The position numbers were made by a program, and so were the translations under genes. Shown piece by piece: positions 26,791 to 59,163 of a DNA stretch of 59,622 nt. Location: the IMG/VR virus record IMGVR_UViG_3300047546_002390, positions 1-59,622 of that record. One strand, 5' to 3'. How positions within the stretch are numbered: position 1 is the first letter of the stretch; every line of letters starts with the position of its first letter. Under the pieces are notes generated by a model. The model made no database searches, was not told the origin of the DNA, and saw only the letters and a program-made list of their open reading frames with translations. The DNA comes from a virus.

Positions 26791-29700
26791 TCACGCCATA
26801 GCCGCGACAACCTTGTCGCCCATTTGAACTCCGACATTATTTAGGCCATTTGCAAATCCATATAGATTTGCCATCGCCGCAGCCAGACCGCGACCCTTAT
26901 GCTCCTTGGATATCGTCGGCTTGCCAACCGTACGCCTACTTCCGAAAGACATCGTGGCCGCTGGCTTCAACTTCTCAGCCTCGAACATGCTTCTGAGAAT
27001 GTCAGAAGGATTTGACATTTTGTCAAATAGGCCCTGTATTTTTCCGTCCCTTACCTTGATGTACTGTTCATGCGTAAATACTTTTACCATTCCGTCCGCT
27101 CCGGAAATTACCCAGTAATCATTGGTTTCACCTGTGGATAAATCTGTATTCCTGACCCTACGAGCTCCAGTTATTGGGCCCTCGGTAAATTTCCTGGTGT
27201 TACCAATTCGTTTGAGATGCGAAGAGCCAGTATTGAACTTGTTTGACTTAAGTTCGCTCAGTGCGGCACTAACTTTTCTTACCGACTCCTCGTCTAGGGT
27301 GAATCCACCAGTGCCACCAGAGTCAATAAATGCAGGGCTTGGGTCTTCATTTCGTCCAAGCAATTCCCAAAGCTTGTTCAGGTCGGTTACGGCTATTTGG
27401 TCTTCCTGGAGCCCCATGTCGGCAGCCCTGGAAAGGTTCTCTTCATTGTTTGGATAAACGTCAACAACATCAAGGTAGACTGTCCCATCGGAAACCCATC
27501 CGCCGATTGTTGTTTTGTCTGCCCCCTGCTTTGGGTTTGCAAACGTTTTAGGCCCATGGAAGTCCATCCATGACAAGAAGGTTTCTACTAGCTCGTCAGA
27601 CGGATTACCTTCAGCGTCAAAATCTGCTACGGCGTCAACTTTCATGCCGTGCTTATTTCTGGCTATGGCTATACCTTCTTTTATGTCATCCATCCTGTCG
27701 ACTTCGACGGTAAAGCCGCCCATAAAGCCCTTGGTGAGCGTTGCTTTCACCGCGGCAACTCTCTCCGGGTCACGATTGAAAGTAATCCTCATATCGCTGG
27801 CCTTCATGCGCGCTTCAATCAGGTTATATTTAATAACCTTCCCAGAAGATAAGCGAGTTGATTTGCTTGGCTTGAATCGCCTGGCTCGTGATTCACTATG
27901 GCCGATAATGTCCTGGGCTACGGCTAGCTCTATATCGTCTTTTGACGCATCTTGAATTTTCTTTCTGCCTGATGACAGCTTGTTGTTAATCGAGACCCTC
28001 TCCATCTCCTCGGCTGCCGTTCGGAAGTCGCCTGCATAAACAAGCGAAACCCGCCTCCCCCTGAGCTCGCCATCCCTTATACCAAACGTATCCGTCACTG
28101 CATGTATGAAGCCGGGGTCGCCAGAATCATCTCGCCGTGAGCGTCCAAGTCTTCTTGCTGCATATAACTGGAAGTGCAAATGCTTTACAGCAAGCTTCTC
28201 TAAGTCGGATAGCGGAGAGTCGGGGTGGTCCGCCATTGACATCATGGCAATGTCATTTGCCCATTCTCCGTGTCTGTCAAATGCGCGGCCAGTACCAAGG
28301 TGTCCGAATAGGTCGTGGAGGGCCTGAAGCGCCTTTCCAGATAGGCCCATATTGAAGTAGATAGGGTCCTCTATTCCTCCGACGTACGACTCAACAAAAG
28401 AACTGGAATCTCTTCTGTTTTTCGTTCCATCAAACAGGGAATTGTCACCCATCGCTGCGCCAGCTTTTGCAGCCAGCTCCATCATAAATTCGCTGTGTTT
28501 ACGCCATGCTTCGCCATATATCCCGGGCAGCACATCACGCTGGAGGGCGCTATTCCCTATTGCGTCGGATGGTAGTACATAACCCTTTGGTGCTATAGCT
28601 TCCAAAAGTGGGAATTTAGCTTTTGCCGCTTCGTCTACATATTGGAGAACTGATTCACCATTTACTGAAGCTTGTCTTGCAACAGCGTTGCCCAAAACAT
28701 CTAACCATTCTTTCTTTTCGTCGTCAAACAACAGCGAACCGGCCACTGCCCTGTCAAGGATTGGAAGCAACGAACTACGCGAAGGAAGTTCCACTGTTCT
28801 CCAATCAATTTTCTTTGGTATGTGTTCCGCTATCTGCGGGATTGGGTCAGCCGACACGAAGGGTATACCGTCTGCAGCGATGCTTATCGATATTGAGTCT
28901 AGTAATTGTCTTCCTGTATCACTGAACGCGGGGTGTGGCTTCACTTCCTGAAGCCTTCTTTTGTTCAGCGCTTTAAGAAGATTTGGCATTATATCTTGAA
29001 TTGTTTTTCTCTGATAGTCATCGAGAGTAATTCCAAGTGTCTTTTCAAGTACTGCGGCAATTCTTTTTCCAAATGCAATCTTGGATATGCCACCTTCCGT
29101 TTCTCCGGTCGTTTCAGCTACGCTAAGCTCTCCCTCTATCGGTAGTTTTTCCGTGACCTGGGACAGTCTGGCGCCTGACGAAAGTCTTTCTGAATCATTA
29201 CGCGTTGGACCACTGCTGAATTTGTCAAATCCCGTCCTACGCAATTCCCTATATGCGGCGTTTGTAATCTTGTCTCTGTTTGTAGCAATATCAAGTGTTT
29301 GTTGGATGACTTCGCGAGCACCTTCCGTCCCTTCGCCATCAGATGGCATTTCCGGAAGGAAATTAGCCGGAGGAGTAATCATCAACGTCTTTGTTGGACG
29401 ACCAAGCACTACAACCTCGTCCTCTCCGAGGCAGCCAAATCCGGTTAGTGGGTTTGAGAATATTTGTTCTACAGGAATGTATGCCTTCATGAGGACGTTT
29501 GAATCAAATACAGCCTGAGCTTCCTCTAGCGCATCTATCCCTGGTTTTTTAGCGGCAGCGAGCGATGTTGAAAAAGCCTGGGCCATAGTGCTGCTCGTTG
29601 TCCACGACGAAAGCGGACGCATAGCCACTTCTCTTTCGGCAATCTCTCCTCTTCCGACTGCCATTTGTGGCGTGGCTTTCATGCCTCGCCATACACCAAG

Positions 29701-32700
29701 ATGCGTAATTCCTTTTGACTTGTAGTAATGCTGCGTAGCGTCGTATATTGCCTTCACTACAGAGCGAATCACTTCTGACTGTTTTTCGCTAAGTTCTGGG
29801 GTATCGTCAAAAGCAAGGTCGCCAAACTCTGAACGCCGCTCAATCGGTATAGCCGAATCGTAGAGAATGTCATTTCTCTTGCCACGCACGCCTCCGTACC
29901 AACCAACTGCATCGTCCAGCCCAAACATTTTTCGTGCTTCGTGCTGTATTGCCATGGCTACAGGGTTTGAGTTATTGGAAGAAATTGCCCATGTATGGAT
30001 GATGTCGGAAACTATTGCTAACCGCGCCTCTCTTATCCCTTCCGGAGAATTTATATCGAAAAATGAAATACCGCTCTTGTATTCATAACGCGCTTTATAA
30101 TCCTCTGCATTGCCGGCAATAAACCGCAATCTATTTATCAAAAAGTTTTTTAATAATTCTTTTGTTTCTGGGGAATCAACATTTGTTGCGTCAACAACAA
30201 ATAATCCAGCAGCTGCCACCCTCTCCAGGTAGTCATCTTTCGCTCCGTAATTTACGTAAAGTCTGTCGTAGGCCTTGTGTTGCTCATCTGTTCTTTCTAG
30301 CTCTGGAACAATCTTTCCATCACGGATAAGTGATTTGAAATCCCTTGCGTACTGGTCACTTATTGAGCCACCCTTAGAAATCAATGCCATCCCAGGCTTT
30401 CCTGTGCGTGGGTCAATCTCGCCCATTGGAGAGAACATTAGGGCTAATCCATCCCCGTCTTTCAATGGTCTTCCAGTTAGCGGGTCTTTACGGTCGGCGC
30501 CGTTAGCGCCCTTCATCTCCGCTATTAAATCGTTGAACATTGTCCTTATTTGGAGGCCAAAATTGAGCATGTCTTTTTTGATTTCGTCTCCACCAAGACG
30601 CGTTATCAAGTATGGAGTCAATATTGACTTCTCGTCGCCTAGCGCAATGTTTGTTAGTTCATTCCATTTGTCGCCGAACAGGTCCTCGTATGAGCGTTTT
30701 TCCAGCTCATCTATGATTTCGTCAAACCAGAACCTCTTTTGGATTATTTTGTCATGCTTCTCTACGGACACCACCGCGCCAGAGGACCTGTCAATAGCAA
30801 ACCTTCCGGCAGCACGCCTTTCTTCTTCAGTTGCATTTTCTGGAAGATTGTCAACGGCATCAAATATTCCTTTTAGTGCCCTGAAATTTGCAGCCGCATG
30901 GAAAAATCTTCGTTGAGCAGCTAAATCTAGACCGCTTTCTTTAATTGATTCTTCAGAGAACGATTTAATGAATTCACGCGGTTCAATCTTTGCTGTTTCT
31001 GCAATATTTGACGCAATCATTCTCTTTGCTGAGGAGCTAGCTTTTCTATCCTCCTCGGATGAAAACATGCTTACGCCAAACCCTGTTACATCAAGTGTGG
31101 ATAGGCCCTCGATAACTGGGTCAAGAATCATTGCCCTCACGTCATGTTCTAGTTCCGCAGTTAAATCCTCCTCTGAGGGTATTGGAAGCGAGGCGCGCAG
31201 GCGCTCAGATGGTCCTGTAGCAAAGGATGCTAGGCCTTCCGGCCTTTCTGGGGCCTCGAATGTGTATGGCTCCTGAGTCTTCTCTGGTTCTTCGGCAGCC
31301 TCGTCCCCGCCTATGAGCTGTCTTAGCGCCCTGGCCATCCGTCCCCTGCGCTTCTCGCGCTCTGGTTTTTGCGTAGCCCCAGAAGAAAGTCTTATTGTCG
31401 GACGCCCGTCCGCACGTCTATCCCACGGAAGGTCATCTTTATCTACCCCAGCAAGGGTGTAAATGTCATCGCGCAATTTTTTGCTTAAAGCGCGCTTTGC
31501 CATTTCTCTGTTTGGGTGCATTATTGCAACAAACGCCTCAGCTATTGCTTCGCGCTTATTGACATTTCCATAAGATGTTGCAGTTAGCGCTTTGTCCGGA
31601 TTTGCCCTAAACATTTCCTCGGCGTCACGACCAGTCAGGTCAACAAACTGCGTATATATTTCTATTGCTTCATTGTCCGTATCGGGGTTTGCATATTCCT
31701 CAGCAACATCGAGTGCTGCGGTGTATTTAGGGTCCCTTAAATCGCCATTTCCGTAGTACGAACGCGCCTTGCCGGATGCCCCATTTGTCTCCGTATCCCA
31801 TATGGCGCGATAGTGGAGCCAGTGGCCATATTCGTGCACTAGTGTGCCCTCAAGGCTTCTGTCCATATGTGCATCGCGCGGTTCTGGGAGCCTGTCTGGA
31901 TTTAGTGAAATTGGATATACGCCCTTTTCGGATGTCGTTAACGACTCCCTATCAATTATTGCTCGCGGTGTAAATCCAATGAGCCCGTATTCGCGCACTG
32001 CGAGCCCACTAACGAATGGCGTCTTCTCTACCCCGCGCTGAATCCGTAGCTGCTCCATGCGCTGTTTCATATCCCCGTTGTTTTCGTAAGCATCTACAGC
32101 TTCGCGTGAAAACACTGTTATCAGGGGGGCGCCATGGTTCTCGAACATCCACCTCATCTGCGGGGACGACTCAAGTAGCCCACGAACAAGGTCTTGTGCT
32201 GCCTTTACCGACTCTGGGGAATAATCAATAGGTAGAGAATTGTCAGCTTTGCCTAGTTCCGAATAATACTTTTCTAGGAATTTTCTCCACTTACGATTTG
32301 TGCGCCAAGTATCACCGGCTATGTCATCAGCCCACATTTCAAAACGCTGTTCGTCGCTGGTTGGGACAACCACTTGCGCGATTTCGTCAGGAGTCATCCC
32401 AGCTAGCCATTTGGTGTTGGTTCTGCGTACTTCTTTTCCGGATGCATCAGGCTGGCCATAGCCCTTGACCGCGCGCTTACCTGGCTCTGTTGGCTTCTGT
32501 TCCTGTGTTGGCTTGATTTGAATGACCGGCCGGTTGCGACCAGATGAAAGCGACTCAGAATTTGATGAAAGTGATTCGAAATACGAAGCTTTGTCTTTTT
32601 CAAACTGGGCTACTTCTTCATTAAATTTGTCGACTGTTTGCTTATGCAGCGAATCGCGCTTTTGTTTATTCAGAGCATCTGTCGGCCAATTCTTTTCGAT

Positions 32701-35637
32701 AGCCCCATCAATAATCCGGCGCATTACTTGGCTTGTTGCAAAAGCATCTGAGTCAGCGTTATGGTGGCCATCGCCGAGGTTTACTCCGAGATATTCGGTT
32801 ATTGCAGCAAGGCTACTAGATGGCTTTTTATTTCCTTCTTTGTCAAGCATGAACGGACCGTCATCCGTTTCCGGGGTCCACTTTGGGAGAGTTAGGGAAG
32901 CTATTTCTCTCGTGTCCAGGTATCCAGATGGGCGCCACTTTTCACCCATTTGTTCCAGAACGCCGTCAAGAACTCCCTTATCAAATGTGGCATTCTGAAC
33001 GCCAAATATTGCTTCTGGGCCCGCAAACTCAATCAGCTGCTTATGTGCTTCGTCTATAGATATCTGGCTGCCCAGCCATTCATCTGTTAGTGGATTTCCG
33101 TCTTTATCTTTGAGATTATTCCTAGACCACTCACCGAGTGGCTCTCCAGGATTCATGAACAGATTTATTCTTTCGACCTCTTTGCCGTTTTTTATTTTCA
33201 CGGCACCGAACTGGACTGGCGCACCTTTACTAATCTCTTTCCCGAATTCGTCAAAAACTAATCCGGTTGTTTCATAGTCAAAAAATATAACTTCTTTGTC
33301 GTCGTACAGCTTCTTAAACTCGTCCCACGATTTTATGTCTGCGAATTCTTCATCAGCAGTACCGATAAATGCACCAAGCGTTGGCGTTCTTGGGTGACGT
33401 GGTGGTTTCCCGCTACTTAGCGTATTGGAATCAACATTATCTAGTGCTACTTCTTTTGCCCCAGAACTGAGCTTGCCTTGACCGGAAAGTTTGACGTCCC
33501 AGATTTCACGTCCATCATCAGTCTGCGTCTTCTTAACCAGCTTGTATGTTGCACCAGCAGGCAGCAATACTTCGTGTTCATTTATTCCAAAATATCTTTC
33601 GTCGAGAGGCTTCCGGGTATCAAAGTTTTCTAGGTTATAGTCATTTGGGCGTCTAGATATGTATCTGCCACGCGTGTTCTTTGTTGTTAATAAGCGAAGA
33701 ACTATTGGCCTTTTGTCTCCCATTCCAGAGTATTGGCCTGGGGCCATCACTGTAAAGCTCTGGAAGCCCCTATCGCCAAATGTGTCACCCTCTTTAAGCG
33801 ATGCAATTTCTGGCGTATTCGCGATTGACCTATACAACGTTATGCCGGCGGTTATTCTGTTGTCCATTAGGAGCCGCTGCATAGACGCATATTCGTACAG
33901 GTTGGGGGACCGCGGGTCATCAAATGTGTAACCCAGCCTTAGTGAGTCATTAATTACTGACCCAAAATCTTTATACTCAGTTATTTTTTCAAGAGCTCCA
34001 TCGTATTTAGGCAAAGACGCATCTATATCGTTTTTTTCAAACACTCTAGATATGAGTCTGTATAGTGATTCTGGAGTGAGCAATGCCCCCTCTTCCCACG
34101 TGCCATAGTCGCCGTCGTACAGCTCTGATACGTGGACTCCACGAGAGCTACGCTTAGTTGAGCCGGACGATAGACGGCCCGAGGATGCCACTGCGAGCTG
34201 TTTTAGCGGCCTTGAGTACATTATCTGTGCTTCTTCATCCGCAAATACTTCATATGCGGCGGGGAAGTCGACAAGCTCCTCGGCTGTTGCTTCTGTTTCA
34301 AAAAGCCCAGTATCTGGATTTTTTCTATATAGAGAAGATATTTTCTTTTTATCTTCCGCAGAGAATATTTCTGGTTGCTCCGTGATGGCCTTGTCGATTA
34401 TCGATAAGAACTTCTGTTTGTCGTTTTCTCCAGCCCACGTAAATCCATTCTTGGGCCAATGGACAGCGCCGCGTGCCCCCTTGCCTGAATGGCCGTGTGT
34501 ATATATCGAAGCAACATCAAGCTCGTTATATAGTTTTTCATTTCTGGCATTAAACGCCGAACCTATCCCCTGGCCCTGAGCCATGCCAAGAACATAAAAT
34601 GAATCATGAGAAATTAATCCCAGGTTTTTTTCGTCATTAGAAACATTGATATATGTTCTATATGCGCGTGCTAGCGATAAACGTCCATCTTCATAGGAGA
34701 GAAATGATTTTTTATTTTCGTCCGTTAATGATTCGATGAGTTCTTTTTCGTACTCTGGAAGCGGTCTAACCAAAAACCCAAGCTGAACCTCGGTCAGCAT
34801 GTCGCCCGGTTCGAATGTATCACCATATAGCTCTTTGGCATCAGCGATATCCGCATCGTTAGCCTTATGAACTTTTACAGAAGTAGAGTATTTCGAGTCA
34901 CTGCTAGGAGCAATGTCTATCAATACCCTGTTGCCTATATTTATTTTTTTCCCATCGTCGGTGGTAATAATAATGTCTTCATCAAGTGTCATTTCACCTT
35001 TAAAAAGCTCAGCCAACAAATCGCGGACACGCTGTTTTTCTAGCTTCCTGTCTTCATTGTCCTGGATTACCATTAACGGTTTTGGCTCCGGCATTCCAGG
35101 CGGCCGTGGTGGGCGAGGACCTTTTTCTTCCTCGTATACGTCTTCTTTTAAAAATTCACCCTGCTTTATATCGTCTATAAACTCAGATGCAAGTTTTTTC
35201 TTTTCGTCAGACACGGGTGGCTGGGAATCAACAATCTCCTGATACTTCTTCCCTGAAGAAAGCGTTCTCGACGTGTCTGGCTCTTCCGCCATTCTCGTAC
35301 CTGACGCTCGGGTATTGCGATTTTCAGCACCGCCAATGCCAACCCATACCGGCTTAGTTGTCCCCTCGTCTGCCCAGCCATCATTATCTGGGTCTAGGCG
35401 GCTACCGGTTGGGCGTCTGTTTCCCGGTCTACCGCCGGTCGGCAGGTCTATGTTTAATCCATGGTCCCTTCCGCGTCTTCTATCACGGTGACCGTCGCCA
35501 ATTCGTGGCCTATCGATAGCTCTTGAGCCAAGATAGCGGCCAAGTCTTCCTAGGGCAGCTTTCTTTTCCGGGCTTGAATTTGCACCGCGACGAGATTCCT
35601 CAAAGGGAATGTGAAACTCTTGATTATCTGCAGACAT
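26791..35637 (-). CDS. Giant multidomain polyvalent protein (2948 residues)
   Basis: Visible modules: a Ca-site-like LDPDNDGWADEGT (about 81); a GNAT-like region with GQGIGSA (about 355); an ADP-ribosyltransferase-like domain (about 595-720) with LYRSI, FQSFT and NEHEVLLPAG (ExE, about 689); a DEDD exonuclease (about 780-975) with FFDYETTGL, VQNATFDKG and HHNADSDAF; a metallopeptidase (about 1100-1420) with LVHEYGHWLH and a downstream REAIAEAF; a second ART-like domain (about 1975-2090) with VWRGM, SSWTTS and GEDEVVVLG; and an HDLFGHLGTGRAF region (about 2440). Nine LSSG linkers and one FSSG separate regions, at about 126, 488, 723, 739, 1029, 1416, 2140 (FSSG), 2151, 2553 and 2596. Phage polyvalent proteins of this kind are thought to enter with the DNA and counter host defences. 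Confidence 0.85.
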   Translation of the reverse strand: MSADNQEFHIPFEESRRGANSSPEKKAALGRLGRYLGSRAIDRPRIGDGHRDRRRGRDHGLNIDLPTGGRPGNRRPTGSRLDPDNDGWADEGTTKPVWVGIGGAENRNTRASGTRMAEEPDTSRTLSSGKKYQEIVDSQPPVSDEKKKLASEFIDDIKQGEFLKEDVYEEEKGPRPPRPPGMPEPKPLMVIQDNEDRKLEKQRVRDLLAELFKGEMTLDEDIIITTDDGKKINIGNRVLIDIAPSSDSKYSTSVKVHKANDADIADAKELYGDTFEPGDMLTEVQLGFLVRPLPEYEKELIESLTDENKKSFLSYEDGRLSLARAYRTYINVSNDEKNLGLISHDSFYVLGMAQGQGIGSAFNARNEKLYNELDVASIYTHGHSGKGARGAVHWPKNGFTWAGENDKQKFLSIIDKAITEQPEIFSAEDKKKISSLYRKNPDTGLFETEATAEELVDFPAAYEVFADEEAQIMYSRPLKQLAVASSGRLSSGSTKRSSRGVHVSELYDGDYGTWEEGALLTPESLYRLISRVFEKNDIDASLPKYDGALEKITEYKDFGSVINDSLRLGYTFDDPRSPNLYEYASMQRLLMDNRITAGITLYRSIANTPEIASLKEGDTFGDRGFQSFTVMAPGQYSGMGDKRPIVLRLLTTKNTRGRYISRRPNDYNLENFDTRKPLDERYFGINEHEVLLPAGATYKLVKKTQTDDGREIWDVKLSGQGKLSSGAKEVALDNVDSNTLSSGKPPRHPRTPTLGAFIGTADEEFADIKSWDEFKKLYDDKEVIFFDYETTGLVFDEFGKEISKGAPVQFGAVKIKNGKEVERINLFMNPGEPLGEWSRNNLKDKDGNPLTDEWLGSQISIDEAHKQLIEFAGPEAIFGVQNATFDKGVLDGVLEQMGEKWRPSGYLDTREIASLTLPKWTPETDDGPFMLDKEGNKKPSSSLAAITEYLGVNLGDGHHNADSDAFATSQVMRRIIDGAIEKNWPTDALNKQKRDSLHKQTVDKFNEEVAQFEKDKASYFESLSSNSESLSSGRNRPVIQIKPTQEQKPTEPGKRAVKGYGQPDASGKEVRRTNTKWLAGMTPDEIAQVVVPTSDEQRFEMWADDIAGDTWRTNRKWRKFLEKYYSELGKADNSLPIDYSPESVKAAQDLVRGLLESSPQMRWMFENHGAPLITVFSREAVDAYENNGDMKQRMEQLRIQRGVEKTPFVSGLAVREYGLIGFTPRAIIDRESLTTSEKGVYPISLNPDRLPEPRDAHMDRSLEGTLVHEYGHWLHYRAIWDTETNGASGKARSYYGNGDLRDPKYTAALDVAEEYANPDTDNEAIEIYTQFVDLTGRDAEEMFRANPDKALTATSYGNVNKREAIAEAFVAIMHPNREMAKRALSKKLRDDIYTLAGVDKDDLPWDRRADGRPTIRLSSGATQKPEREKRRGRMARALRQLIGGDEAAEEPEKTQEPYTFEAPERPEGLASFATGPSERLRASLPIPSEEDLTAELEHDVRAMILDPVIEGLSTLDVTGFGVSMFSSEEDRKASSSAKRMIASNIAETAKIEPREFIKSFSEESIKESGLDLAAQRRFFHAAANFRALKGIFDAVDNLPENATEEERRAAGRFAIDRSSGAVVSVEKHDKIIQKRFWFDEIIDELEKRSYEDLFGDKWNELTNIALGDEKSILTPYLITRLGGDEIKKDMLNFGLQIRTMFNDLIAEMKGANGADRKDPLTGRPLKDGDGLALMFSPMGEIDPRTGKPGMALISKGGSISDQYARDFKSLIRDGKIVPELERTDEQHKAYDRLYVNYGAKDDYLERVAAAGLFVVDATNVDSPETKELLKNFLINRLRFIAGNAEDYKARYEYKSGISFFDINSPEGIREARLAIVSDIIHTWAISSNNSNPVAMAIQHEARKMFGLDDAVGWYGGVRGKRNDILYDSAIPIERRSEFGDLAFDDTPELSEKQSEVIRSVVKAIYDATQHYYKSKGITHLGVWRGMKATPQMAVGRGEIAEREVAMRPLSSWTTSSTMAQAFSTSLAAAKKPGIDALEEAQAVFDSNVLMKAYIPVEQIFSNPLTGFGCLGEDEVVVLGRPTKTLMITPPANFLPEMPSDGEGTEGAREVIQQTLDIATNRDKITNAAYRELRRTGFDKFSSGPTRNDSERLSSGARLSQVTEKLPIEGELSVAETTGETEGGISKIAFGKRIAAVLEKTLGITLDDYQRKTIQDIMPNLLKALNKRRLQEVKPHPAFSDTGRQLLDSISISIAADGIPFVSADPIPQIAEHIPKKIDWRTVELPSRSSLLPILDRAVAGSLLFDDEKKEWLDVLGNAVARQASVNGESVLQYVDEAAKAKFPLLEAIAPKGYVLPSDAIGNSALQRDVLPGIYGEAWRKHSEFMMELAAKAGAAMGDNSLFDGTKNRRDSSSFVESYVGGIEDPIYFNMGLSGKALQALHDLFGHLGTGRAFDRHGEWANDIAMMSMADHPDSPLSDLEKLAVKHLHFQLYAARRLGRSRRDDSGDPGFIHAVTDTFGIRDGELRGRRVSLVYAGDFRTAAEEMERVSINNKLSSGRKKIQDASKDDIELAVAQDIIGHSESRARRFKPSKSTRLSSGKVIKYNLIEARMKASDMRITFNRDPERVAAVKATLTKGFMGGFTVEVDRMDDIKEGIAIARNKHGMKVDAVADFDAEGNPSDELVETFLSWMDFHGPKTFANPKQGADKTTIGGWVSDGTVYLDVVDVYPNNEENLSRAADMGLQEDQIAVTDLNKLWELLGRNEDPSPAFIDSGGTGGFTLDEESVRKVSAALSELKSNKFNTGSSHLKRIGNTRKFTEGPITGARRVRNTDLSTGETNDYWVISGADGMVKVFTHEQYIKVRDGKIQGLFDKMSNPSDILRSMFEAEKLKPAATMSFGSRRTVGKPTISKEHKGRGLAAAMANLYGFANGLNNVGVQMGDKVVAAMA

Positions 35638-35671
35638 CTAAATAAATAATACCATTACAAATAAAGGCCAA

Positions 35672-35995: not shown

Positions 35996-36647
35996 CGTCG
36001 CTGAAATCCCTGTATCTAGGCTCTTCTTCTGAGTCAGATACTACTTCAGCATCAATTATCAAACCTTCATCTTCTTGATGTTTCCGAAGAATTGAAGAAA
36101 CAGTTTCCTCCGGCAATACGCCAGAAATCGCCATGAGTTCAAGCAGCTTTTTAGCTTCAGATTCAGCGTCAAAACCAGACGCCGGCGTCGTAACTCCAGG
36201 CTGGCCAGCAATTGTTGCGCGAACCTGAGAGTTGATATTCCCGTCAATATTTACATTGACATTTGTTTGCTCCATGCCAAGAAGTTTCGTTCTTCTGTCC
36301 ATAATTGAGAGCACCTGCTGGATTGCTTTCAGGTCTGGTTCTACCTGCATCTCTGTACCGTCGTCCATTACAACGCGCCTGTGCTGCGTCATGGGCCAAA
36401 TAGCCTGCTGGAGGTTGTCTAGGCGCTCCAACTCCATTCTGAGCACCTCTGGGTAGGCCAGGATGGCTTCCTTATTCATCTTTTCCAGTTGACGCTGAAT
36501 TGAGCGTGAAACAGACGATGTTGAGATGCCGAATCTTCTGGCTATCTCATTGACAGACGTACCGGCCTGGCGCATCTTGAAAATACGCATGTCTCTCTCG
36601 TTGAGAAACTCTTTAGTAGTAATCGGTTTTGATTTTTCGTCGCTCAT
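35979..36647 (-). CDS. HTH protein, terminase-small-subunit-like
   Basis: A 222-residue protein. A helix-turn-helix near residues 25-50 (KMRQAGTSVNEIARRFGISTSSVSRSI) is followed by a helical middle with LSIMDRRTKLLGME, as in many phage small terminase subunits. The C-terminus is acidic. It could recognise packaging DNA or regulate genes; the large terminase is not in the window. It overlaps primase-helicase by 4 nt. Confidence 0.55.
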   Translation of the reverse strand: MSDEKSKPITTKEFLNERDMRIFKMRQAGTSVNEIARRFGISTSSVSRSIQRQLEKMNKEAILAYPEVLRMELERLDNLQQAIWPMTQHRRVVMDDGTEMQVEPDLKAIQQVLSIMDRRTKLLGMEQTNVNVNIDGNINSQVRATIAGQPGVTTPASGFDAESEAKKLLELMAISGVLPEETVSSILRKHQEDEGLIIDAEVVSDSEEEPRYRDFSDDEPGK

Positions 36648-38488
36648 TTAACAGCCTTAGACCACTCGATGACCTCAAATGGAAATCTGACGCCTCTTTT
36701 CATTTTAGTCGGCCACTGACGCTCGTCACGAGCACCACGGAAATGTCGAACATCGTAAACATATGCCCCGAGGGCCGTGGGGTCTGGCTGAAGGGAAATA
36801 CCGAATTCTGGCCAGCGCGACCAGACTGCCGAACCAAAGGGCCGAAGGTCTCTGCTCGTCATGCTGGTTCCCAGTGGAGCGTGATGTTCAATCCATAGGG
36901 CGCACTTGTAGATGGTTCTAATGGTGTCAAGGTATTTTGCAACCTCTAGCGCAATTGATTCAGACGTTCTTCCGCCTGGGTCAAGAAACGCCTTGTAAAG
37001 AGGCCCAATCACTAGTAACTCTGGCTTAACCCTGTCGAGGGTATCCTCGAGAATTGCCCTATCCGAAGCTTTAAGCAGGTCCATTCCTGATGGGCGTGTT
37101 AGTAGTTCTGCGTTCAGTCTTGAAACCCGGGCATGAGCCATTGCCTGCATCGCGATTGAGCGTCCAGTTCGGCGAATAATTCTGTCAGGGTTTTCAAGGT
37201 CTACCGTAAGTGTCTTGATTGGATTCATCGGCTGAAACGAGAACGGATGGATTCCGGCGGCAGACAGGAGTGCTACTTGCCTAGCGAGCATTGTCTTGCC
37301 GACACCTTCGGCGGCAACAACAATCACTCTTTCGCCTCTCTCAATTAGTCCTGGTATTGCCCATTCGTACGAGTCGCCGTCTGTTTCTTTAAGAAAATCA
37401 TTCCAATGAACCAGTCGGCCTGTATCAAGAGTAAATGACACAGTTGCTGTTGAGAGGATGAGATTGCTTTTTGCAATTTTCTGTTTTGTATTGAGGTCGT
37501 CGCGCTCTAACAGCTCCTGTAAATTTAAAAGCGCAAGCCCTTCTGGGGACGCCTCATCGTCAATTCGGTGTACTGCTGGCTCAATATCGCTAAAACCATC
37601 TTCAGAAACGTTCGCAGAATATGTTTCTGCGTGCTCTTCGTAGGCAAGAAGTTCATCGATGGATTTACCTGATGAAAGATGGTCTGTGATGTCTTTGTGC
37701 GATGGGCAAATCCATACCTGCGCATCACAGCCAGCTTCATTTAGTTTTTGTTGAACATCAAGAGCATGCTTGATTCCGACTTCATCATTGTCTGCAACTA
37801 TTTCAACAAGACTTCCAGCGAGTGGTTCCGTGTGGATATCTAGCCATTTCCCAGCTCCGCCTGGCATTGTCGTTGCGATAAATCCAGCCTCTATGAGGGT
37901 GTCTGCATCTTTCTCCCCCTCTACAACCCACACTGGAGCGTTATATGTTTTGGCAGAAATAACAGCTGGCAAGTTGTATAGGACTTTTGGCACGTCACCA
38001 AGACTGTATTCCCATCCGCCTTTCCCGTCTGGTTTGCGCTGGCGAAACGTTTTCTTTCCGTCTTCATCTACGTATCGCAGTTTTTGGAAAAGAAGCACGC
38101 CGTTTTCATCCGTGTAGTCATATGTGGCTACAAGTGTTTGTTTTTTTGGTGGCTCAACCTGCTTTGGCGTTACATGTTTTTGCTCTGTCTTTTTTGGTGC
38201 CGGTGGCGGCCTATGGTCGGTTTTGTATGTCTGTTCAAAATCGTCTTTCTTAGGCATCAAGTCAGCGACGCTAAGACCAACAGCCGCACATATTTCCTCG
38301 ACATTGCAGGACATTCCACGATGACACGTAACAAGGACTCGGCCATCTGCTCCTTGCCCGACGGAAAGCGATGGATTTGAGTCGTCATTTCTGCACGGAC
38401 AACGCGCCACCCAGCCAGAGCCAGCTCTTCTGACGCCGTCAAGCAGGCCGAGAAAATTTTCTGTTTCTTCTGATGGAACTGTTGTCAT
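36644..38488 (-). CDS. Bifunctional TOPRIM primase / RecA-like helicase
   Basis: A 614-residue protein. The N-terminus (about 15-65) is a CHC2-like zinc region with CPCRNDD and CHRGMSC. TOPRIM follows with VVEGEKDAD (about 189) and a VADNDEVG motif. The C-terminal ATPase has VAAEGVGKTMLARQ (Walker A, about 393) and LLVIGPLYKAF. Such fusions prime and unwind DNA. The start shares one base with the WhiB gene stop (TAATG). Confidence 0.9.
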   Translation of the reverse strand: MTTVPSEETENFLGLLDGVRRAGSGWVARCPCRNDDSNPSLSVGQGADGRVLVTCHRGMSCNVEEICAAVGLSVADLMPKKDDFEQTYKTDHRPPPAPKKTEQKHVTPKQVEPPKKQTLVATYDYTDENGVLLFQKLRYVDEDGKKTFRQRKPDGKGGWEYSLGDVPKVLYNLPAVISAKTYNAPVWVVEGEKDADTLIEAGFIATTMPGGAGKWLDIHTEPLAGSLVEIVADNDEVGIKHALDVQQKLNEAGCDAQVWICPSHKDITDHLSSGKSIDELLAYEEHAETYSANVSEDGFSDIEPAVHRIDDEASPEGLALLNLQELLERDDLNTKQKIAKSNLILSTATVSFTLDTGRLVHWNDFLKETDGDSYEWAIPGLIERGERVIVVAAEGVGKTMLARQVALLSAAGIHPFSFQPMNPIKTLTVDLENPDRIIRRTGRSIAMQAMAHARVSRLNAELLTRPSGMDLLKASDRAILEDTLDRVKPELLVIGPLYKAFLDPGGRTSESIALEVAKYLDTIRTIYKCALWIEHHAPLGTSMTSRDLRPFGSAVWSRWPEFGISLQPDPTALGAYVYDVRHFRGARDERQWPTKMKRGVRFPFEVIEWSKAVK

Positions 38489-38823
38489 TAATTTGCCTGC
38501 GATGAGAGGAAAAGCAGATTAACAGGTATGCGTGGTATGGGAACAATGTTCAGCTGTTTACGAATCTTCTGACGTTCCCGCTCTGTCGCCCCACCCCATA
38601 TTCCAAACATTTCGTGATAAAGCGAGTAGGACAAACATTCCTGCCGGATGTGGCAAGTTGAGCAGATTTTCTTGGCAATCTCTGTGTTTAGTTTGGCCTC
38701 ACGGATTTTTCGGGAGAATTCGCCGGGCTCTGATTTATCGGCCATCGGGAACCAAATGTCGGGGTCATGCCCAGCGCAGTCACCTCCGCGTGGAAGTTCG
38801 TCTATGCGACTAATTGCTTTCAT
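38488..38823 (-). CDS. whiB: WhiB-family Fe-S transcription regulator
   Basis: A 111-residue WhiB-like protein. The four iron-sulfur cysteines are Cys 16 (GGDCAG) and the cluster ICSTCHIRQEC (about 53-63). DPDIWFP and the GIWGG turn (about 74-78) are present, followed by a basic segment. WhiB proteins bind a 4Fe-4S cluster and the sigma-A subunit to redirect transcription; they are restricted to actinobacteria and their phages. It is translationally coupled to the primase. Confidence 0.92.
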   Translation of the reverse strand: MKAISRIDELPRGGDCAGHDPDIWFPMADKSEPGEFSRKIREAKLNTEIAKKICSTCHIRQECLSYSLYHEMFGIWGGATERERQKIRKQLNIVPIPRIPVNLLFLSSQAN

Positions 38824-38849
38824 CTGGCCCTCCCATGAATTACCGGAGG

Positions 38850-39263: not shown

Positions 39264-39291
39264 TCGGCAAGACCCCTCTTACCGAATTCGT

Positions 39292-39729: not shown

Positions 39730-39810
39730 ATCGAAGACACTAGCGCATACGTGTGGCGCGCGAGTGAAAAGACGTTTATTTCTTTACCTTAAAATGTAGA
39801 CATATTTGTT

Positions 39811-43340: not shown

Positions 43341-43416
<76 letters not shown>

Positions 43417-45652: not shown

Positions 45653-45672
45653 ACCCCACTACTCAGCCTCTA

Positions 45673-47031
45673 TCAGTCAGGGGCGTTGTCGAAGTCCACC
45701 TTCACGAAGGCCTCCGGACGCTTGACGGCGAGTGCCAGTCTCTGCTCCGCGAGGATGACGATGGCGTTGCGGACGAAGAAGTCCGAGTGCTGCTCGCTGA
45801 TGCGGATGCTCGCCTGCTCGCGGTCGTACAGCTGTGCGCCGGTACCGAACGCACCGACCAGTGCTGTACCCTCGGTCATTGCCGGGGTGTCCACGATTGG
45901 CATTCTCCAGACGCGTGGCTCGCCACCCATTGCGACCGAAACCGCGATGAGGTACTGACCATTGGCGTCCTTTGTCAGCTCGATGTCTTCCCAGTCGTTC
46001 GGGTGAACCACGATGCCTGACGGCTCGTAGTATGCCAAGAATGAGAGGGTCGCAGCGCGACGGAGAGCATCAGCCTTTGTGTCCGGGACCGGGGTAACGG
46101 CACCGGATGACCATGCGTACTCCTGGATGTTCGGGGTGTTCAGAACGCCGAGCAGGTTCTCGCCGACGCCGTCACCGTTGAGGATTTGGTTGTCCTCAAG
46201 GAGACGGAGACCATACATGAGCTCGTTGTCGATGATTGAACGCAGCTGCGGCTCATCTGCGAGGACGTTGCGGTGCGCTGCTTCCCAGTGGGCGAGCGTA
46301 CGAACCGGCGCCTGCTCGCCAACAAAGGCGAACGATGACTGCGGCTTGATACCGAATGCTGTGTTGCCGGCGTTGCGCTCAGCGACCGAAGAAGCCGAGT
46401 TCGTGCCATGACCAGCCTGAAGCGTGGTGAAGCCGAGTTGACGGAAGTACTCAATCACTGCAGCGTTTGTGGTGCGTGTTGGGAACAGGTCGCGAACGCG
46501 CTTTGTGCGCATTGGCGGTGTTACCATTGGGTCACGCTGAACCGTGCCGAATGAACCGAGACGGCTACCGGTAACGTCTGTTGTAGGCAGACCTGAGTAC
46601 ACGTCCTTGACGTTGTAGCCAGATGTTAGCGAAGCGGCAACCTGCCACGGAGCGGCCATGTTTGCGCCATTACGGCCACCGTTGAGAGCCTTGAACTCTG
46701 CTGACTCAAGGAACATCTGACCAATGCTCTTGATTTCACGAGATGACAGTTGGTTCATGTCTGCGGCAGCAGCTGCGTAAGCGGCGGCTGCTGAATCGCC
46801 TGACGGCTCTGAACCCCAGCTATCAACTGAGTTCATGGTCTCAAGGTCGCCGAGAAGGCCCTTGATTTCCTTGATGTCGCGCATGTTCTTGTCGAACGCG
46901 CTCTTCTGCTCTGGAGTAACGACAACGGTGCCGTCCTCAACTCTGAATGAGTCAGCGATGGTCTTATTGTCTGCCATCTTCTGACGGAGGGCTGATTGCA
47001 GCTCCTCGATACGGGCTTTGTCTTCCGACAT
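45673..47031 (-). CDS. Major capsid protein (HK97 fold)
   Basis: A 452-residue protein with an N-terminal coiled-coil delta-like region (about 1-70) and an Ala/Ser-rich linker (SAAAAYAAAAADM). The capsid core follows: FPTRTTNAAVIEYFR (about 185), VGEQAPVRTLAHWE, NELMYGLRLLEDNQILNGDG (about 272-291), LNTPNIQEY and SGIVVHPNDWEDI (about 343). The HK97-type shell is assembled from hundreds of copies. AAGGAGAAAGTA precedes the ATG. It is followed by a strong terminator. Confidence 0.93.
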   Translation of the reverse strand: MSEDKARIEELQSALRQKMADNKTIADSFRVEDGTVVVTPEQKSAFDKNMRDIKEIKGLLGDLETMNSVDSWGSEPSGDSAAAAYAAAAADMNQLSSREIKSIGQMFLESAEFKALNGGRNGANMAAPWQVAASLTSGYNVKDVYSGLPTTDVTGSRLGSFGTVQRDPMVTPPMRTKRVRDLFPTRTTNAAVIEYFRQLGFTTLQAGHGTNSASSVAERNAGNTAFGIKPQSSFAFVGEQAPVRTLAHWEAAHRNVLADEPQLRSIIDNELMYGLRLLEDNQILNGDGVGENLLGVLNTPNIQEYAWSSGAVTPVPDTKADALRRAATLSFLAYYEPSGIVVHPNDWEDIELTKDANGQYLIAVSVAMGGEPRVWRMPIVDTPAMTEGTALVGAFGTGAQLYDREQASIRISEQHSDFFVRNAIVILAEQRLALAVKRPEAFVKVDFDNAPD

Positions 47032-51186: not shown

Positions 51187-51691
51187 TATTGTTCTCCTCT
51201 AGTTCGCGAAGAAGAAGCATGGCTTTCCATGCAAAATCACGCTCTTCCAGCGTTTTGAATTTATATATATTGACATCTAACTTTATCATTTCATCGCAAC
51301 ATGAGCTCGTCAGCATTTTCTGTTCGATGTCTCTATCAATGAATGATTTGACAGCCCTTTCAGTTTTGTCAATCTTTTTCTTGTTTTTGCCAACAGACTT
51401 TTTGGCTGGCATCTTGTCAAGCATTGAGTCTTTTATTGGGCGTGTTTTTTCAATAAAAGTTTCATACCACGCTCCAGACGTCGGGTCCTTGGGCGCGTCC
51501 CATAGAAATCTCTGAAATGGCGTTGAACGAAGCTTCCTGAAGTCACGAGCAGTTGTTGAAATGCTCATTATGTACCCCTTGATAGTAGTCCCATCTGGTT
51601 TTTCTATTATTGCGTCTTTTTCCCCGGGCTTTGCCTCAGCGTTGTAGTAGACCCTGCTGTCATTGAGGAGACCTACGAGTATTGACTTCAT
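51176..51691 (-). CDS. Hypothetical protein
   Basis: A 171-residue protein with a beta-rich N-terminus (YYNAEAKPGEKDAIIEKPDG), a basic middle (KKSVGKNKKKIDKTERAVKSF) and a helical end (LEERDFAWKAMLLLRELEEN). No family known. Its ATG overlaps the stop of the giant 2491-residue gene by 4 nt. Confidence 0.55.
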   Translation of the reverse strand: MKSILVGLLNDSRVYYNAEAKPGEKDAIIEKPDGTTIKGYIMSISTTARDFRKLRSTPFQRFLWDAPKDPTSGAWYETFIEKTRPIKDSMLDKMPAKKSVGKNKKKIDKTERAVKSFIDRDIEQKMLTSSCCDEMIKLDVNIYKFKTLEERDFAWKAMLLLRELEENNSVN

Positions 51692-54600
51692 AGCATTCCA
51701 CCAGAAGTTGACGTTATTTGCGGCTTACGGCTGTTTTTCATTTCTTTCATCATGTCTTTCGCAGCTTCGACTATTTCATCCCCAATAGCCCTAATCAGGA
51801 CGGACTCGACCGACTCTCCTCCCCTTGCTGCCTTGGAGTGCGACCGCGGGTCTTCTATGTTGAAACCGGTTGGATGGGCAAACTTGACATTATTAAGACC
51901 CTTGCTGGCCATGTCTGTTTTTATTTTTTGAGATGCTCTGTACTGTCGCAGCATTGCCATGCTTTGCGTGTTGATATTTTTGCCACCGCCGATTGAGTAA
52001 AAATATTGAATCTCTTCTGGAGAGAACCCAGCAGACCTCAGTTTCTCTGCTATTGACCGCTCGTTGACCGCATCGCTAATATTTTCTTTTTCGCCAGCAG
52101 ACTGAAGCCTCTTGAATGGGATATTGACTTGTTCGACTTCATTTATGTCAAATCCACCAAGTATCTGCGCTTCAAACGGCTCTCTTGATGAACCATCTGG
52201 AAGATTCTTGTCAAAGGAACTTGGCATTGTTCCTTTCGAGCCTCTTGACGCGTTTACGTTTGAGAAATCGTTATTTATTGACGACGAAAGCATGTGCAGG
52301 AACGCTTCCTGCGCCTGCTTATCTCCGTTGATGCCGTCTGGGTTCAATATAGCATCAGCAACGTCTTCTCTGTTGCGGGAGTTTAGCTTGACAGGTCGAT
52401 GAGCAGACGATATTGAATTGCCGCGACCATAAGCAGTTCTCTCGGATACTGATGGTCTAAGAACAATTTCTATGTCGCCAAATGCTGTCAGTCCATCGCC
52501 AACAACGTCTTCGTCCCCTATCTCGTAAACAGCATCCGGCCTTAGGTTGCCATTCTTTGAATTCATTATTTGCTGTCTCTTGGCATCAAGATGCGACTTG
52601 TGAACTAGATATCCGCTTACTGGCAGAGAGTCGTTGCTTACGGATTCTGGAAGACCTATTCGAGAATAGTATTCACGTGCATACTGTTCAGACGACCTGT
52701 TGAGTGTTTTCCCAGACGATAATCTTCCTGATGTTTCTGTTGGTAATGGGCCATTTCGTGTTATTGCCCTATCCCGTAGTTCCTGTTGTGTTTCTGCATC
52801 AAGATTTTTAAATCGCTCGATAGCACTATTTACTTCATCAGTTGATATCTCATATCTGCGGGCCACTCTTTCAATTTTTTCGCCGCCCTCAACAAAATCA
52901 TTGTAAATCATTAGGTCAGCATCGTCGCGAGACAGCATTCCACTGAAATAACGTGTTATATCTCCAACATCTTCGCCATACAGATTACGTAGCTCACGCT
53001 CGCGCTCAATTTTGCGCTTATCAGCCTTAGATTTGCGCATTTTTGCTAAACGTCCAACGCTCTGTCTACCAGGCGAACCTTTCTTGCCACTTGATAAGCG
53101 GCCGGAACGTTCTATATCTGCCGCTCTTATCGCCTCATCAAGTTGTCTTTCGCGCGCCGCGGCTATATCGCTTTGCCCGCGCGTACGTGCAAGTCTTTGT
53201 CTGAACTCAACTGCTTGTGCATAGTCTGGATTATTACGGAGTCCTACTGACCCGAGCTGGATATAGTCTCCCTGATTATATTTCTCATCGATTAGCCTTG
53301 GTGCATTTGCAGTTAAGTCTGTAGATATTGCATCAAATTCATCTGGAGATATCTGAGGTATGTTTTCTTGTTTTCCATCCCAGCGAAGCTCTGCACCAAG
53401 ACGCGCTTCCTTAATCCCAAACGCATCCTGGAATACTTTTCCAAGCGTAAGTCCCTCGATGATATCTGTTTGAACCTCATTAGCAGAAAGTGGTATTTGA
53501 AGCTCAGGCGGCAGAGACCTATTGCCGACAACTATCCCTGCCCACCTATGGTGACCATCTAAGATGTACTTATCTCGTGTTGTAAGGATTGGCTGCATGA
53601 ACCATTCTTTACCCATTTCTTCTAAATACTTTACTCTAAATTCTTCATCTGATATTCCTGGCGATGCAGCCCTTATCTGCTCTGCGATTTTTATCGCAGT
53701 TTCCTGAATTGTTTGTGCGGTTGAGTCAACTTTTGATGCTACAAGTTGTTGCTGTGACGGTGCATATTCGCTAGGGTCAACTTTTCTCAATCGAACTGCC
53801 GCACCATTCTGTGGGTCCTCAACATCTATTACGCCATTGAGCCAATTTATGAATGGCGTTTCTAGGTTAACCTCTGTATCGTTCCAGTCAGTATTTTCAT
53901 ATAGCCACTGCTTTGCTTTATCTGAAAGCAAACTAAATGAGTCTTCCATATGTTCGCGCTGCGTTTTGCCACTTAGCTCATTGCGCAGCGAGTGCTTGTC
54001 TGCAATTATTTCATAAAGAATTCCTGGAATTTCATCATCAGAAACAGCATCCTTAGGTGGTATTTCTTGTGACCTCTTCCTATTGATTTTTGCTATTTTT
54101 GCGTCTAGCTCTTCGGCAAACTCAATTTCAAGTTCCCTATTTCTCGTTATTCCGTCCTTTGATGGCTCCCATTTTCCTGCAGCCACGCCAGCTTTAAGGG
54201 CCATTATTGCCTTTGTATTTTGACCAGATGAGCGACCATTTGTCTGTGGCATTTTTTCTCTGTCGATACCTATGTGGCCAGAGCACATTAAGTTGTTCGC
54301 AGGGTTATAAAGCGAACATAGGTCAGCCTGATAGTTGCCTACGTACTCGCTTTCCATTGCTTTTCTAACATCCGGGTTGTCGATATCTAGTCCTGGGTTT
54401 TTGAGTGCATATTCCTCTTGAAATGCTCTCCAGCGCGGATGGTTTTCTTTAATATGCTTTTTAGCTACTGATTTAACCTCTTTTTCAAAGACTTTTTGTG
54501 CCTGCTCCGTAAGGCGAATATCTTGGTCTCTTACCTCAACGTGGTGTCCAAGCATCATGAGCGCTACGGCAGTAGAAACATCGTCAACCTCATAAAGGTT

Positions 54601-57600
54601 CGAGTCTTTTTCGCTGATTGACTTTCTTGCAGACCGCTTAACCGACCCACCAAATCTCTTTGATATCTCGTCATCAGACATGTCGTTTACGTTTTGCCCA
54701 CTATTGATAACGTCGTCAAAGACGGACAGGGCGCGTTTGGCAACGTCTTTTTCCTGACGCCTGCGTTCGGCTAGGTTTTCGCTTGAATCAATTGTCCTAC
54801 CAGAAGAAAGTCTTGCAGAACGCTGTTCTGGCGGCATACCGGCTAGGCGTTCAGCCCTTCTCGATGCCCTTGCAGTTTCATCTGATGGGGACGAGAACGG
54901 AGAGCGTATTCCGCGGCCTGATGAAAGTCTTTCTATGTCAGCGTCAGTCGCGCGCACTCTGACTCTTCTATCAAAACCTTCATGCATTCTGTATGCGGTT
55001 GCCTGTGCCCTTGAAATGAGAACCTCTTCGGGGAGTCCGGCTATCAGGTCAGCAACTTCTGGGTGAATATCTCCCCGAGAAATACTGCCGTCGCCACGTC
55101 CACCGCCAAGTGCGGTTTTAATATTTCTCGTAACGGAAGACATTCTCGATTCGCGTGATTGAGTCCGTTGCTGTCGTGTCGCAGGCACGCCAAGGGCACT
55201 TCTTTTCCCATTTACGGCGCCAGATGACAGTGAACCTGAACGTCCTGACGGCCCATCTGGTGGCAGGTCATCAATGCCTTCTCCAAATGAGCCACCGGCG
55301 TCTATGACGTCATCAAGCACGTCAGATGTTGATTTTGCAGCTACGTCGTCATAGTCGCTTCGCGAGCCTGGGAACGTTTTCCCAGATGCCCGTCTCTTTG
55401 AAACATATTTGTCTGCAACTGCCTGTATTTTTTTGGCATGGCTCTGAGCCCATATTGCATCAGTTTTATTCTTTGACAAGCTATCCGCCATGCCATCGAC
55501 AACTTCAACAGCATCTTTTTGATAAGAAATTTCTGCCCTGATTGTACCGTCGGAGTCCCTGCCGATAATTCTCAATCGTCCTGGCGGGGCAACGAACTTC
55601 TGTTCGCCCTCTCCGCCTGTTGCTGGGAATAATCCACGGTCGCCTTCTCTCACCTGGACAACAACGCGCCTAGAAGTGCGGCCTGTTTTTGCATCTCGCC
55701 GGCCGCGTTCTGGCATGTCTGTCTTTTTTGTTCTACTAGTTATGACACGACCAGAAACAAACTTGTCAACATCAACTTCTTTTCCATCTAGTTTGCCCTT
55801 TAAGACGCCTGCCTCGAAATCAATAATTGCTTCCATTTCAAACGGGTCGGCAACAGATGTTCCATCAATCGCCTCCATTGTTGGTATCAAAAGTTTTTCG
55901 ACTTGCTGAACAGTGTCCGCTTCATCAGAAGACATTGGGTCAACCTCTAGGCCTAGCCTCTTTAGTCTTGCATTTCTCTTGTTCATTGCGCGTCCGGCCC
56001 GCGTCTGTGTCGCCGGGTCAAGGAGCATGCCAACGTCAGATTCGGCTACATCGCCTAGCTCTTTCATGGCCTTTTTCTGTTCTGGAGTGGCTTTTACCCG
56101 TCTGCGCTCGCGCGCGCCATGGTCAGATGCTTCTTTTGCACTCTTAAATTTTTTGCTTGGCTTCGGCGGAGGGCTGATTGTGTCCTTTACCTTCTTGTCG
56201 ATATCTCTCTTAACAGCTGTGATGCTTCTGGTATCGCCAGCCTCTTTTAGATTTTTCGCATGTTGGTCTTTTATGACGTCAATACGCTCTGCGAGGTCTC
56301 TTGCCTCTGGAGATGCTGGGTCCATCGTTGAAAGACGAACCTCATCGTCGGCGAGCTTCCGTATAACCTTTTTCTCAGGCATTCCCTTTACGCTCTCGCG
56401 CAGGTCGTCAAGGTCCGCAAGTCTTGCTATTTCTTCCATCTCCCCGACATCTAGAAGACCCTCTCGCTCCCTAACCTCTCGGACACTGTCTTCGAAACGC
56501 TTCTTTTCTCCGCTGGCACCTACGCCATATTTTTTTCTCCATATCTTTGATGCTTCGTCGTATTTTTTAGTGTGATAATCCAGGGCCCGTTGGCAATCTT
56601 TTATTGCCTCTGCCTTCATGGATTCAAGTGAAATTCTCTCGTCGTCAGGAAGGGTCGGGTCGATTTCAAAATCTCTTACTGCATCTAGCCTGCGTTTTGC
56701 ATTATCTCTTTGTGAAGCAATAATTGCAGCTTCATCGAACATTTCTTCTTCTGGAAGCTCGCCAAATACCGTCTTAAATCGCTTTATTTCCTCGCGCAAC
56801 TCAGAAGCGAGTCTCTCGTCTCTATCAGCGAGCGTCTCCTCAATGACATCATCCGGCATATCGTCTGGAACCGTGGTTGGCGTAGGGATACGGAACACGT
56901 CGTCCATGGAATCCATTGCTGAATCATCGTCGGCAGAGGCTCTTTCGCGGGCTGCGGCTGCAAAGCTTGCGCTGTCCATCCACTCAAGTGCTGCATCAAT
57001 ATCTTCGCCATAGATGATTCCGCGCTCGCGCAATGCCCATAACTCGGCTGAGGCCTCAAGCGCCCATACCTCTGAACCCTCTATGTATGTATCTCGTGGA
57101 TACGAGCCGGCGAGTGGGGCGATTGCCTTGATTCTCTCCATAGCATCATTAAGTGAATCAAGATTTATTGAGTCGGCGGTATCCGTCATGATTGCCATGA
57201 GGTCATCTCCGCTCAATTTATAAATTGAATCGACGTTGCGTTCGCCTATTTTGACTCCGTCCCTAATGACGGGGACAGTAATGAATCCCTTGTCTGCTAT
57301 TTCAGACATTATTTTCTCTTGAAATAGTTGCGCTTGTTTATGGTGTGCTGATTCGTGGAGCATGATGTGGCTAGAGAATGAATAGACGCCATCCAGCAAG
57401 CCGGCCATTCCCCTAGATGCATAGTCGGCATTAATCAGGAAGTCAGCGACAGCAAGACGCCCCTCCGCTTCACTTCTTGCGCCAACGGCAGATATTGCCA
57501 GGCGCTGGTCTGGACGCATGTCTGGGAGCATCGATTCCTGATTGGAAAGAATTTCAGCCATATTGATGTGAATTGCAGTGCGCATTTCCCCAGGCACTTT

Positions 57601-59163: not shown

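Follow-up and report, generated by a model that had tools for sequence, protein, structure and literature searches.

The stretch of viral DNA analyzed here, called the window in the following, comprises positions 1 to 59,622 of the IMG/VR record IMGVR_UViG_3300047546_002390 (59,622 nucleotides in total) and encodes two giant proteins that share the tetrapeptide LSSG. Both open reading frames (ORFs) were confirmed on the minus strand, that of protein A at positions 35637-26791 (2948 amino acids, aa) and that of protein B at positions 59163-51688 (2491 aa). LSSG was present nine times in A and five times in B and was the top-ranking tetrapeptide of A and likewise of B. The counts expected were 0.098 for A and 0.087 for B, and none of 2000 composition shuffles reached the observed count of either protein. 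A six-frame count over the whole window yielded 22 LSSG, 14 of them in A and B. Arg or Lys directly preceded LSSG in 6/9 copies in A and 4/5 copies in B, so that RLSSG and KLSSG were the main forms, and Lys, Arg, or Ala directly followed in 8/9 and 5/5 copies, respectively; the surrounding linkers were rich in Ser, Gly, and Arg. Many different codon combinations were used for the 14 copies, which indicates that LSSG is not a DNA repeat and that selection acts at the protein level. The two proteins, their LSSG counts, and the preferred neighboring residues had been described in an earlier interpretation made from the letters alone (the sequence-only reading), and this observation is confirmed as a real, strong, and unusual signal, far above the frequency given by composition. 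One further LSSG in a Toprim/AAA ORF (36644-38488; motif at 37667-37678, minus strand) was taken as a chance occurrence.

The LSSG sites of protein A often mark the edges of modules (coordinates of all sites and modules of A and B refer to the minus strand of the window). Site 126 (TLSSGK, 35251-35262) follows an N-terminal IDRP domain. Site 489 (RLSSGS, 34162-34173) is the left edge of a module at residues 492-725 (33463-34164) that had no family match and contains the residues YRS...EHE, which we take to be an ART-like motif. Site 723 (KLSSGA, 33460-33471) is followed by site 740 (TLSSGK, 33409-33420) at the left edge of a DnaQ/RNase_T-type exonuclease module (residues 743-1032, 32542-33411), which was assigned by a Pfam RNase_T match at residues 784-971 and by structure comparison, and site 1030 (SLSSGR, 32539-32550) is the right edge of this module. 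The following module (residues 1033-1419, 31381-32541), without a Pfam match, carries the sequence HEYGH at residue 1268, presumably a zincin-like signature, and ends at site 1417 (RLSSGA, 31378-31389). Sites 2152 (RLSSGA, 29173-29184) and 2554 (KLSSGR, 27967-27978) are on either side of HDLFGH (residue 2441) in a module at residues 2155-2556 (27970-29175), which occupies another place in the protein in two relatives, G004 and G006. The block moved in these two genomes has its left edge at site 2152 and its right edge at site 2596 (RLSSGK, 27841-27852). Thus, the positions around the exonuclease, after HEYGH, and on both sides of the HDLFGH region agree with those in the sequence-only reading. 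ART-like stretches were seen in A at residues ~602-687 (YRS...EHE) and ~1983-2072 (WRG...EDE), with no family match at the thresholds used. When A was compared by tblastn with a phage collection, the exonuclease part was the sole match.

A predicted structure of A residues 715-1440 had a mean predicted local distance difference test score (pLDDT) of 84, and its exonuclease resembled PolC/DnaQ exonucleases. Only 75 of the 726 residues had a pLDDT below 50, and the three segments below this value held all four LSSG sites of this region (723, 740, 1030, and 1417). In this one model, 4/4 sites are therefore predicted to be in disordered, flexible linkers, as in a polyprotein, and not inside folded domains.

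Protein B contains the sites 1312 (55219-55230), 1413 (54916-54927), 1452 (54799-54810), 2023 (53086-53097), and 2148 (52711-52722). The latter two are the left and right edges of a 125-aa module (residues 2026-2150, 52714-53088) that is missing in the relatives G001 and G004. It is weakly Mor-like, with a Mor-type match at residues 2079-2127 of 19.1 bits, under the Pfam cut-off of 24.9, and had no homologue in proteins of at least 650 aa of the other 26 genomes compared below. A tblastn search with B in the phage collection gave no match.

Positions 2170-59622 of the window agree with the IMG/VR contig G002 (145,204 bases) at 99.995% identity, and this contig contains a third giant, protein C (2943 aa, four LSSG), which adjoins B about 1.3 kb past the end of the window. 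The domains of C are Peptidase_S78 (residues 32-175), ArdcN, MPTase-PolyVal, and UvrD-helicase. The assignment of the N-terminal S78 domain is based on matches to PF04586 (1.7e-11, above the cut-off) and to the head maturation protease family PHROG_80 (1.1e-27); the NCBIfam model proheadase_HK97 gave 2.3e-13 but with 50.5 bits was under its cut-off of 59, and a search against PDB sequences found no match at E values up to 1. Residues H70 and S134 of this domain, which we take to be the catalytic His and Ser of S78, were invariant in 5/5 aligned sequences. A portal protein gene precedes C, the HK97-type capsid gene sits between A and B, and a contractile-tail sheath protein is encoded in G002 (PHROG). 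Proteins A (RNase_T plus the presumed HEYGH and ART-like signatures) and C (S78, ArdcN, MPTase-PolyVal, and UvrD-helicase) carry several unrelated domains per chain, and all three giants are encoded among virion genes (capsid, portal, and tail sheath), both as described for polyvalent proteins. LSSG was found in 7 of the 157 called ORFs of G002, with 18 of the 23 copies in A, B, and C and two in a 1604-aa protein. This protein is presumed to be the tape measure from its length and its place beside the tail genes and had no PHROG or Pfam match.

A domain with the sequence GSRxIDRPxIG is located at residues 24-102 of A (window ~35568-35332) and at residues 547-641 of C. Many genomes have a single copy of it close to the N terminus of their A-type giants and another single copy a short way ahead of the first motif in their C-type giants. 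B-type giants have instead a Cys-containing domain at residues ~212-275, part of which recurs in a 677-aa head-region protein. Both domains are candidates for capsid-targeting parts of these proteins.

To compare the linkers among related phages, IMG/VR loci with an S78 domain (47 loci) or with the capsid (best 80 of 199) were used. An S78 search of 30 records gave 25 positives, and 23 of the positive records, fetched for their head regions, were combined with G001, G002, G004, and G006 into a set of 27 genomes. G003, which overlaps G001, was excluded from the ortholog and genome tables, and the fragments G005, G007, and G008 are outside the 27, with G007 used in some alignments. The motif [LF]SSG was enriched in the giants of 19/27 genomes, with the local forms RLSSG, KLSSG, SLSSG, GLSSG, and RFSSG; [IV][ST]GxM was enriched in three (G017, G019, and G020) and GLAS, STRS, GFAS, and GMRS in one genome each. 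A single motif class was present per genome in 26/27 genomes, and the table of motif counts was nearly block-diagonal: STRS occurred 35 times in G022 and at most once in any other genome, GMRS 38 times in G031 and at most once elsewhere, and GLAS 23 times in G021 and at most three times elsewhere. In the remaining genome, G029, S78 was present, but a motif was not found, and the 60 kb fetched encoded no protein longer than 1616 aa. In 22 of the 26 genomes with a motif, it was present in every protein of at least 1000 aa in the table. A short motif is common to the borders of units, as in a polyprotein. In a tree of the capsids, in which many forks were weak, the classes other than LSSG did not form one group.

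Controls agreed with a signal at the protein level. In the 53 giants of the LSSG class, LSSG was counted 273 times and its 11 anagrams 2 to 18 times each, except for GLSS with 67 copies, a number inflated by GLSSG. The non-giant proteins of four genomes (2,576 to 7,861 aa each) and one shuffled set yielded no such motif. Distinct 12-mers accounted for 13/14, 22/24, 17/23, and 18/20 of the copies in FSSG/LSSG genomes, 22/25 for GLAS, 30/35 for STRS, 17/20 for GFAS, and 12/14 for SGRM; GMRS had the least diverse spellings with 19/38. This diversity rules out a DNA repeat or gene conversion as the source of most motifs, with GMRS being less clear.

The same module was found with different motifs at its borders in different genomes. 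The exonuclease module was present in 20/27 genomes, in varied giants and at varied positions, and in 14 of these 20 cases the motif of the own genome was within 30 residues on both sides. These flanks included LSSG, FSSG, [IV][ST]GxM (G017 and G020), and GMRS (G031). The module was flanked on one side only in five cases (G004, G011, G015, G019, and G023) and on neither side in G018.

Copies of the presumed tape measure protein from 16 genomes were examined, all of them outside the stretches used for motif finding. The protein contained the motif of the own genome in 14/16 cases, with 1.4 cases expected from shuffles. When the motif labels were permuted among the genomes, the mean was 6.3 and the maximum 13 (P = 0.0002). 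Among 20 genomes, 17 had a site at residues 500-850 and 12 had one ahead of residue 60; the middle site was within a linker that could not be aligned among the four closest genomes. Common descent of the linkers alone, which the sequence-only reading had doubted, does not account for sites that border one module in different proteins or for sites in such unalignable linkers.

Modules were permuted, inserted, duplicated, or swapped among the relatives, with breakpoints enriched at the motif, and the modular-exchange reading offered by the sequence-only reading is borne out by this. Blocks of A were reordered in G004 and G006 relative to G002, with breakpoints at or beside LSSG 126, 489, 740, 1030, 2152, and 2596. 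Among 57 merged breakpoints in A and B of relatives, 27 were at most 12 residues from LSSG, a distance that applies to 3 to 8% of the positions. Over 26 genomes, 287 of 1297 merged alignment ends, which are not independent between related genomes, were at most 20 residues from the own motif, compared to a mean of 109 and a maximum of 147 in 1000 circular shifts. This was the case in the genomes of the LSSG class (245/1063; shifts, mean 87, maximum 123) and in those of the other classes (42/234; shifts, mean 22, maximum 37). One module of A, between LSSG 489 and 723, had 97.3% DNA identity between G002 and G001, with the neighboring modules at 62.1% and 61.2% and the steps at LSSG, so that this module was recently swapped between phages at LSSG.

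The simplest explanation for motifs that differ between genomes and are shared within one would be a single trans-acting reader. This reader is likely a protease, and the S78 domain is the best current guess for its identity. As judged from the sequences, the LSSG linkers are probably cut by a phage protease, for which the S78 domain is the most likely candidate, and this would release separate modules. Proteins A, B, C, and the long presumed tape measure would be made as single chains. The protease, located at the start of C or, in some relatives, in a separate protein, would cut the motif in disordered linkers, with the scissile bond perhaps after the Ser residue of LSS, LAS, FAS, MRS, or TRS. 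This would free separately folded modules such as the exonuclease and the zincin-like, ART-like, ArdC/metallopeptidase, and helicase modules, which would presumably be packaged and delivered into the host together with the DNA. When the preference of the protease drifts, all sites of a genome should drift with it, to FSSG, GLSSG, [IV][ST]GxM, GLAS, STRS, GFAS, or GMRS. Modules that act after their release may be arranged in any order, which would allow insertion, loss, and swap at the linkers. For the wider proposal of a polyprotein system widespread in tailed phages, in which one phage-wide code directs the cuts of the own S78 protease in the giants and in a tape-measure-like protein, code and protease drift together, and modules are shuffled between codes, our confidence is barely above even. 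The processed-polyprotein part of the sequence-only reading has gained strong support from the concerted shift of the motif per genome, the flanks of the same module, the predicted disorder, and the S78 domain of C, with cleavage itself being inferred as before; its interpretation as a whole is partly supported.

S78 was fused to a giant in 22 genomes, and the first motif of this giant was at residues 586-720 in 17 of them and at 411, 526, 746, 882, and 1042 in the others. Five S78 proteins were stand-alone (460, 789, 823, 868, and 881 aa).

A number of results weigh against cutting of these linkers by S78. S78 was present in 27/27 genomes, 23 of which had been chosen for it, so that this is selection and not support. 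The motif classes were picked from the same giants in which they were counted, and the class of G017 and G019 was suggested by the exonuclease flanks and by G020. Giants without a motif exist, with 3/4 carriers in G004 and in G006, 2/4 in G019, and 4/5 in G022. The own motif was absent from 2/16 presumed tape measures (G009 and G010), and off-class matches occurred in these proteins, mainly GLAS in 5/15. Most breakpoints were away from the motif (30/57 in A and B of relatives and 1010/1297 in the 26 genomes), and anagram control sites showed a slight excess as well, with 56 of 970 alignment ends near them (shifts, mean 36.5, maximum 58). The model of C residues 1-1110 was poor (pLDDT, 60), with three LSSG in low-confidence segments, as were 508 of its 1110 residues. 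The stand-alone S78 proteins of G017, G020, and G022 did not contain the motif of their own genome. The capsid is the expected substrate of S78, and an exact match of its border to the genome motif was sought and not found. In the major capsid protein of the window (HK97-fold, 45673-47031, minus strand), LSSRE is located at residue 95, near the expected border between the delta domain and the mature protein. A capsid motif L[ST]SxE was present in 19/19 genomes of the LSSG class and in none of the four with GLAS, STRS, GFAS, or GMRS, also in 2/3 with [IV][ST]GxM, a distribution confounded by kinship. Finally, a substrate of the tape measure type, if the presumed identity holds, is outside the head and would hardly meet a prohead protease.

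Cutting of the motif by an enzyme other than S78 is regarded as unlikely. Candidates would be a protease of the host, the metallopeptidase linked to ArdC, the HEYGH module of A, or a phage protease that escaped recognition, and the cut might be made after injection. The motif carriers could then all be ejected proteins, including the presumed tape measure outside the prohead, and the 27/27 count of S78 is in part a result of selection. Metallopeptidases have been proposed as processors of polyvalent proteins in the available text of Iyer et al. (2017, PMC5512222). However, MPTase-PolyVal was found in only 19/27 genomes and not found in 8/27, including G017, G019, G020, G021, and G022, which are punctuated by motifs, with the records possibly incomplete; homologues of the HEYGH module were found in 11 of the other 26 genomes. 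The change of the motif among related phages should fit a phage-borne reader better.

It is rather improbable that the chains stay intact and that the motif serves in docking or ejection, for example as a packaging tag, a binding site for scaffold or portal, or a start point of unfolding. Its occurrence in the presumed tape measure as well as the giants, and in linkers predicted to be disordered, would suit such a signal, but the copies are numerous in each protein and often at module edges, and a free module order is not predicted. The packaging tag offered by the sequence-only reading is weakened by the many copies, and the GSRxIDRPxIG domain, present about once per A- and C-type giant, is the better candidate. 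Very little speaks for linkers as a mere by-product of module exchange, a favored joint spread by recombination: one module was indeed exchanged at LSSG (97.3% DNA identity versus 61 to 62%) and the GMRS spellings were less diverse, but the wide codon differences in most motifs mean that DNA copying does not maintain them, and neither the concerted change of the sites of a genome nor the presence of sites in the presumed tape measure, in linkers that could not be aligned, is explained. Chance or the composition of the Ser/Gly/Arg-rich linkers was rejected, because shuffles, anagrams, non-giant proteins, and permuted motif labels did not reproduce the signal.

Cutting of the linkers by a phage protease can be compared to known systems. 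In the polyproteins of eukaryotic RNA viruses, functional units are separated by sites that recur along the chain and are cut by one viral protease, and these sites drift among lineages. The repeated, lineage-drifting sites between units are alike here, with cutting inferred; unlike them, the system would belong to a tailed DNA phage whose protease is unrelated, whose genome encodes several polyproteins, and whose modules have a free order. Polyvalent proteins were defined by Iyer et al. (2017, PMC5512222), who likened them to RNA virus polyproteins and predicted processing by embedded peptidases. They are likewise giant multi-domain chains encoded close to virion genes, and their domains include ArdC, MPTase-PolyVal, nuclease, and helicase. 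In the available part of that text, however, no linker motif is given and the word “linker” does not occur, whereas the linkers here share a lineage-specific motif; moreover, assemblin-like peptidases are described there as always C-terminal, whereas S78 is N-terminal here.

According to the accessible portions of PMC5694885 and PMC10052503, a single phage protease processes numerous head and ejection proteins in SPN3US, phiKZ, 201phi2-1, and T4; it recognizes a short motif, A-X-E or S/A/G-X-E, and its specificity varies among relatives. A single phage protease, a short motif, and a specificity differing between relatives would be common to both systems, but the sites in these phages are mainly in propeptides and are cut after Glu, whereas the motif here is between folded modules. 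Glu was absent from every motif class, which does not agree with X-X-E cleavage of the T4/phiKZ type. The injected anti-restriction protein DarA of P1 is trimmed by the prohead protease Pro (PMC12810830, in the part available), a case of a prohead protease acting on an injected protein, as proposed here, but with a single N-terminal cut instead of the proposed separation of modules at multiple sites. Among the literature matches listed, which covered few subscription papers, no title or abstract described giant phage proteins with a common linker motif that is specific to the lineage.

The host may be an actinobacterium, as suggested by a WhiB-type transcription factor (window 38488-38823, minus strand; Pfam, 2.2e-15) and by the nearest cultured capsids, which were those of Brevibacterium and Gordonia phages. 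The cultured relatives by capsid, Cantare, Gray, GMA6, and Gilgamesh, had about 34 to 49% capsid identity. A single LSSG was found among 29 of their proteins, which represent parts of the genomes, and it was in the annotated tape measure of GMA6. A wider motif search in Gilgamesh gp48 and 18 proteins of Cantare, Gray, and GMA6, again parts of the genomes, found nothing similar. Collagen-like repeats of the GATGPTG type were also present, and GATG was the most enriched 4-mer in the proteins of at least 650 aa of G001, G002, G004, and G006. The window contains ten tRNA genes, nine at 17999-22531 and one at 43341-43416. Between positions 4951 and 9686, long ORFs overlap heavily on both strands, and gene calls are ambiguous there.

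The processing of polyvalent proteins has so far been a prediction, as stated in the available text of PMC5512222, and putative cut sites can now be read from the sequence in 26 genomes, which makes it possible to list the fragments to be expected and to test for them directly. The lineage-specific code provides a natural series of protease-substrate pairs for the drift of specificity. Should the cleavage be real, it would account for the ability of one phage to carry many delivered activities and to exchange them freely, and giant phage proteins of unknown function could be broken down into units on this basis.
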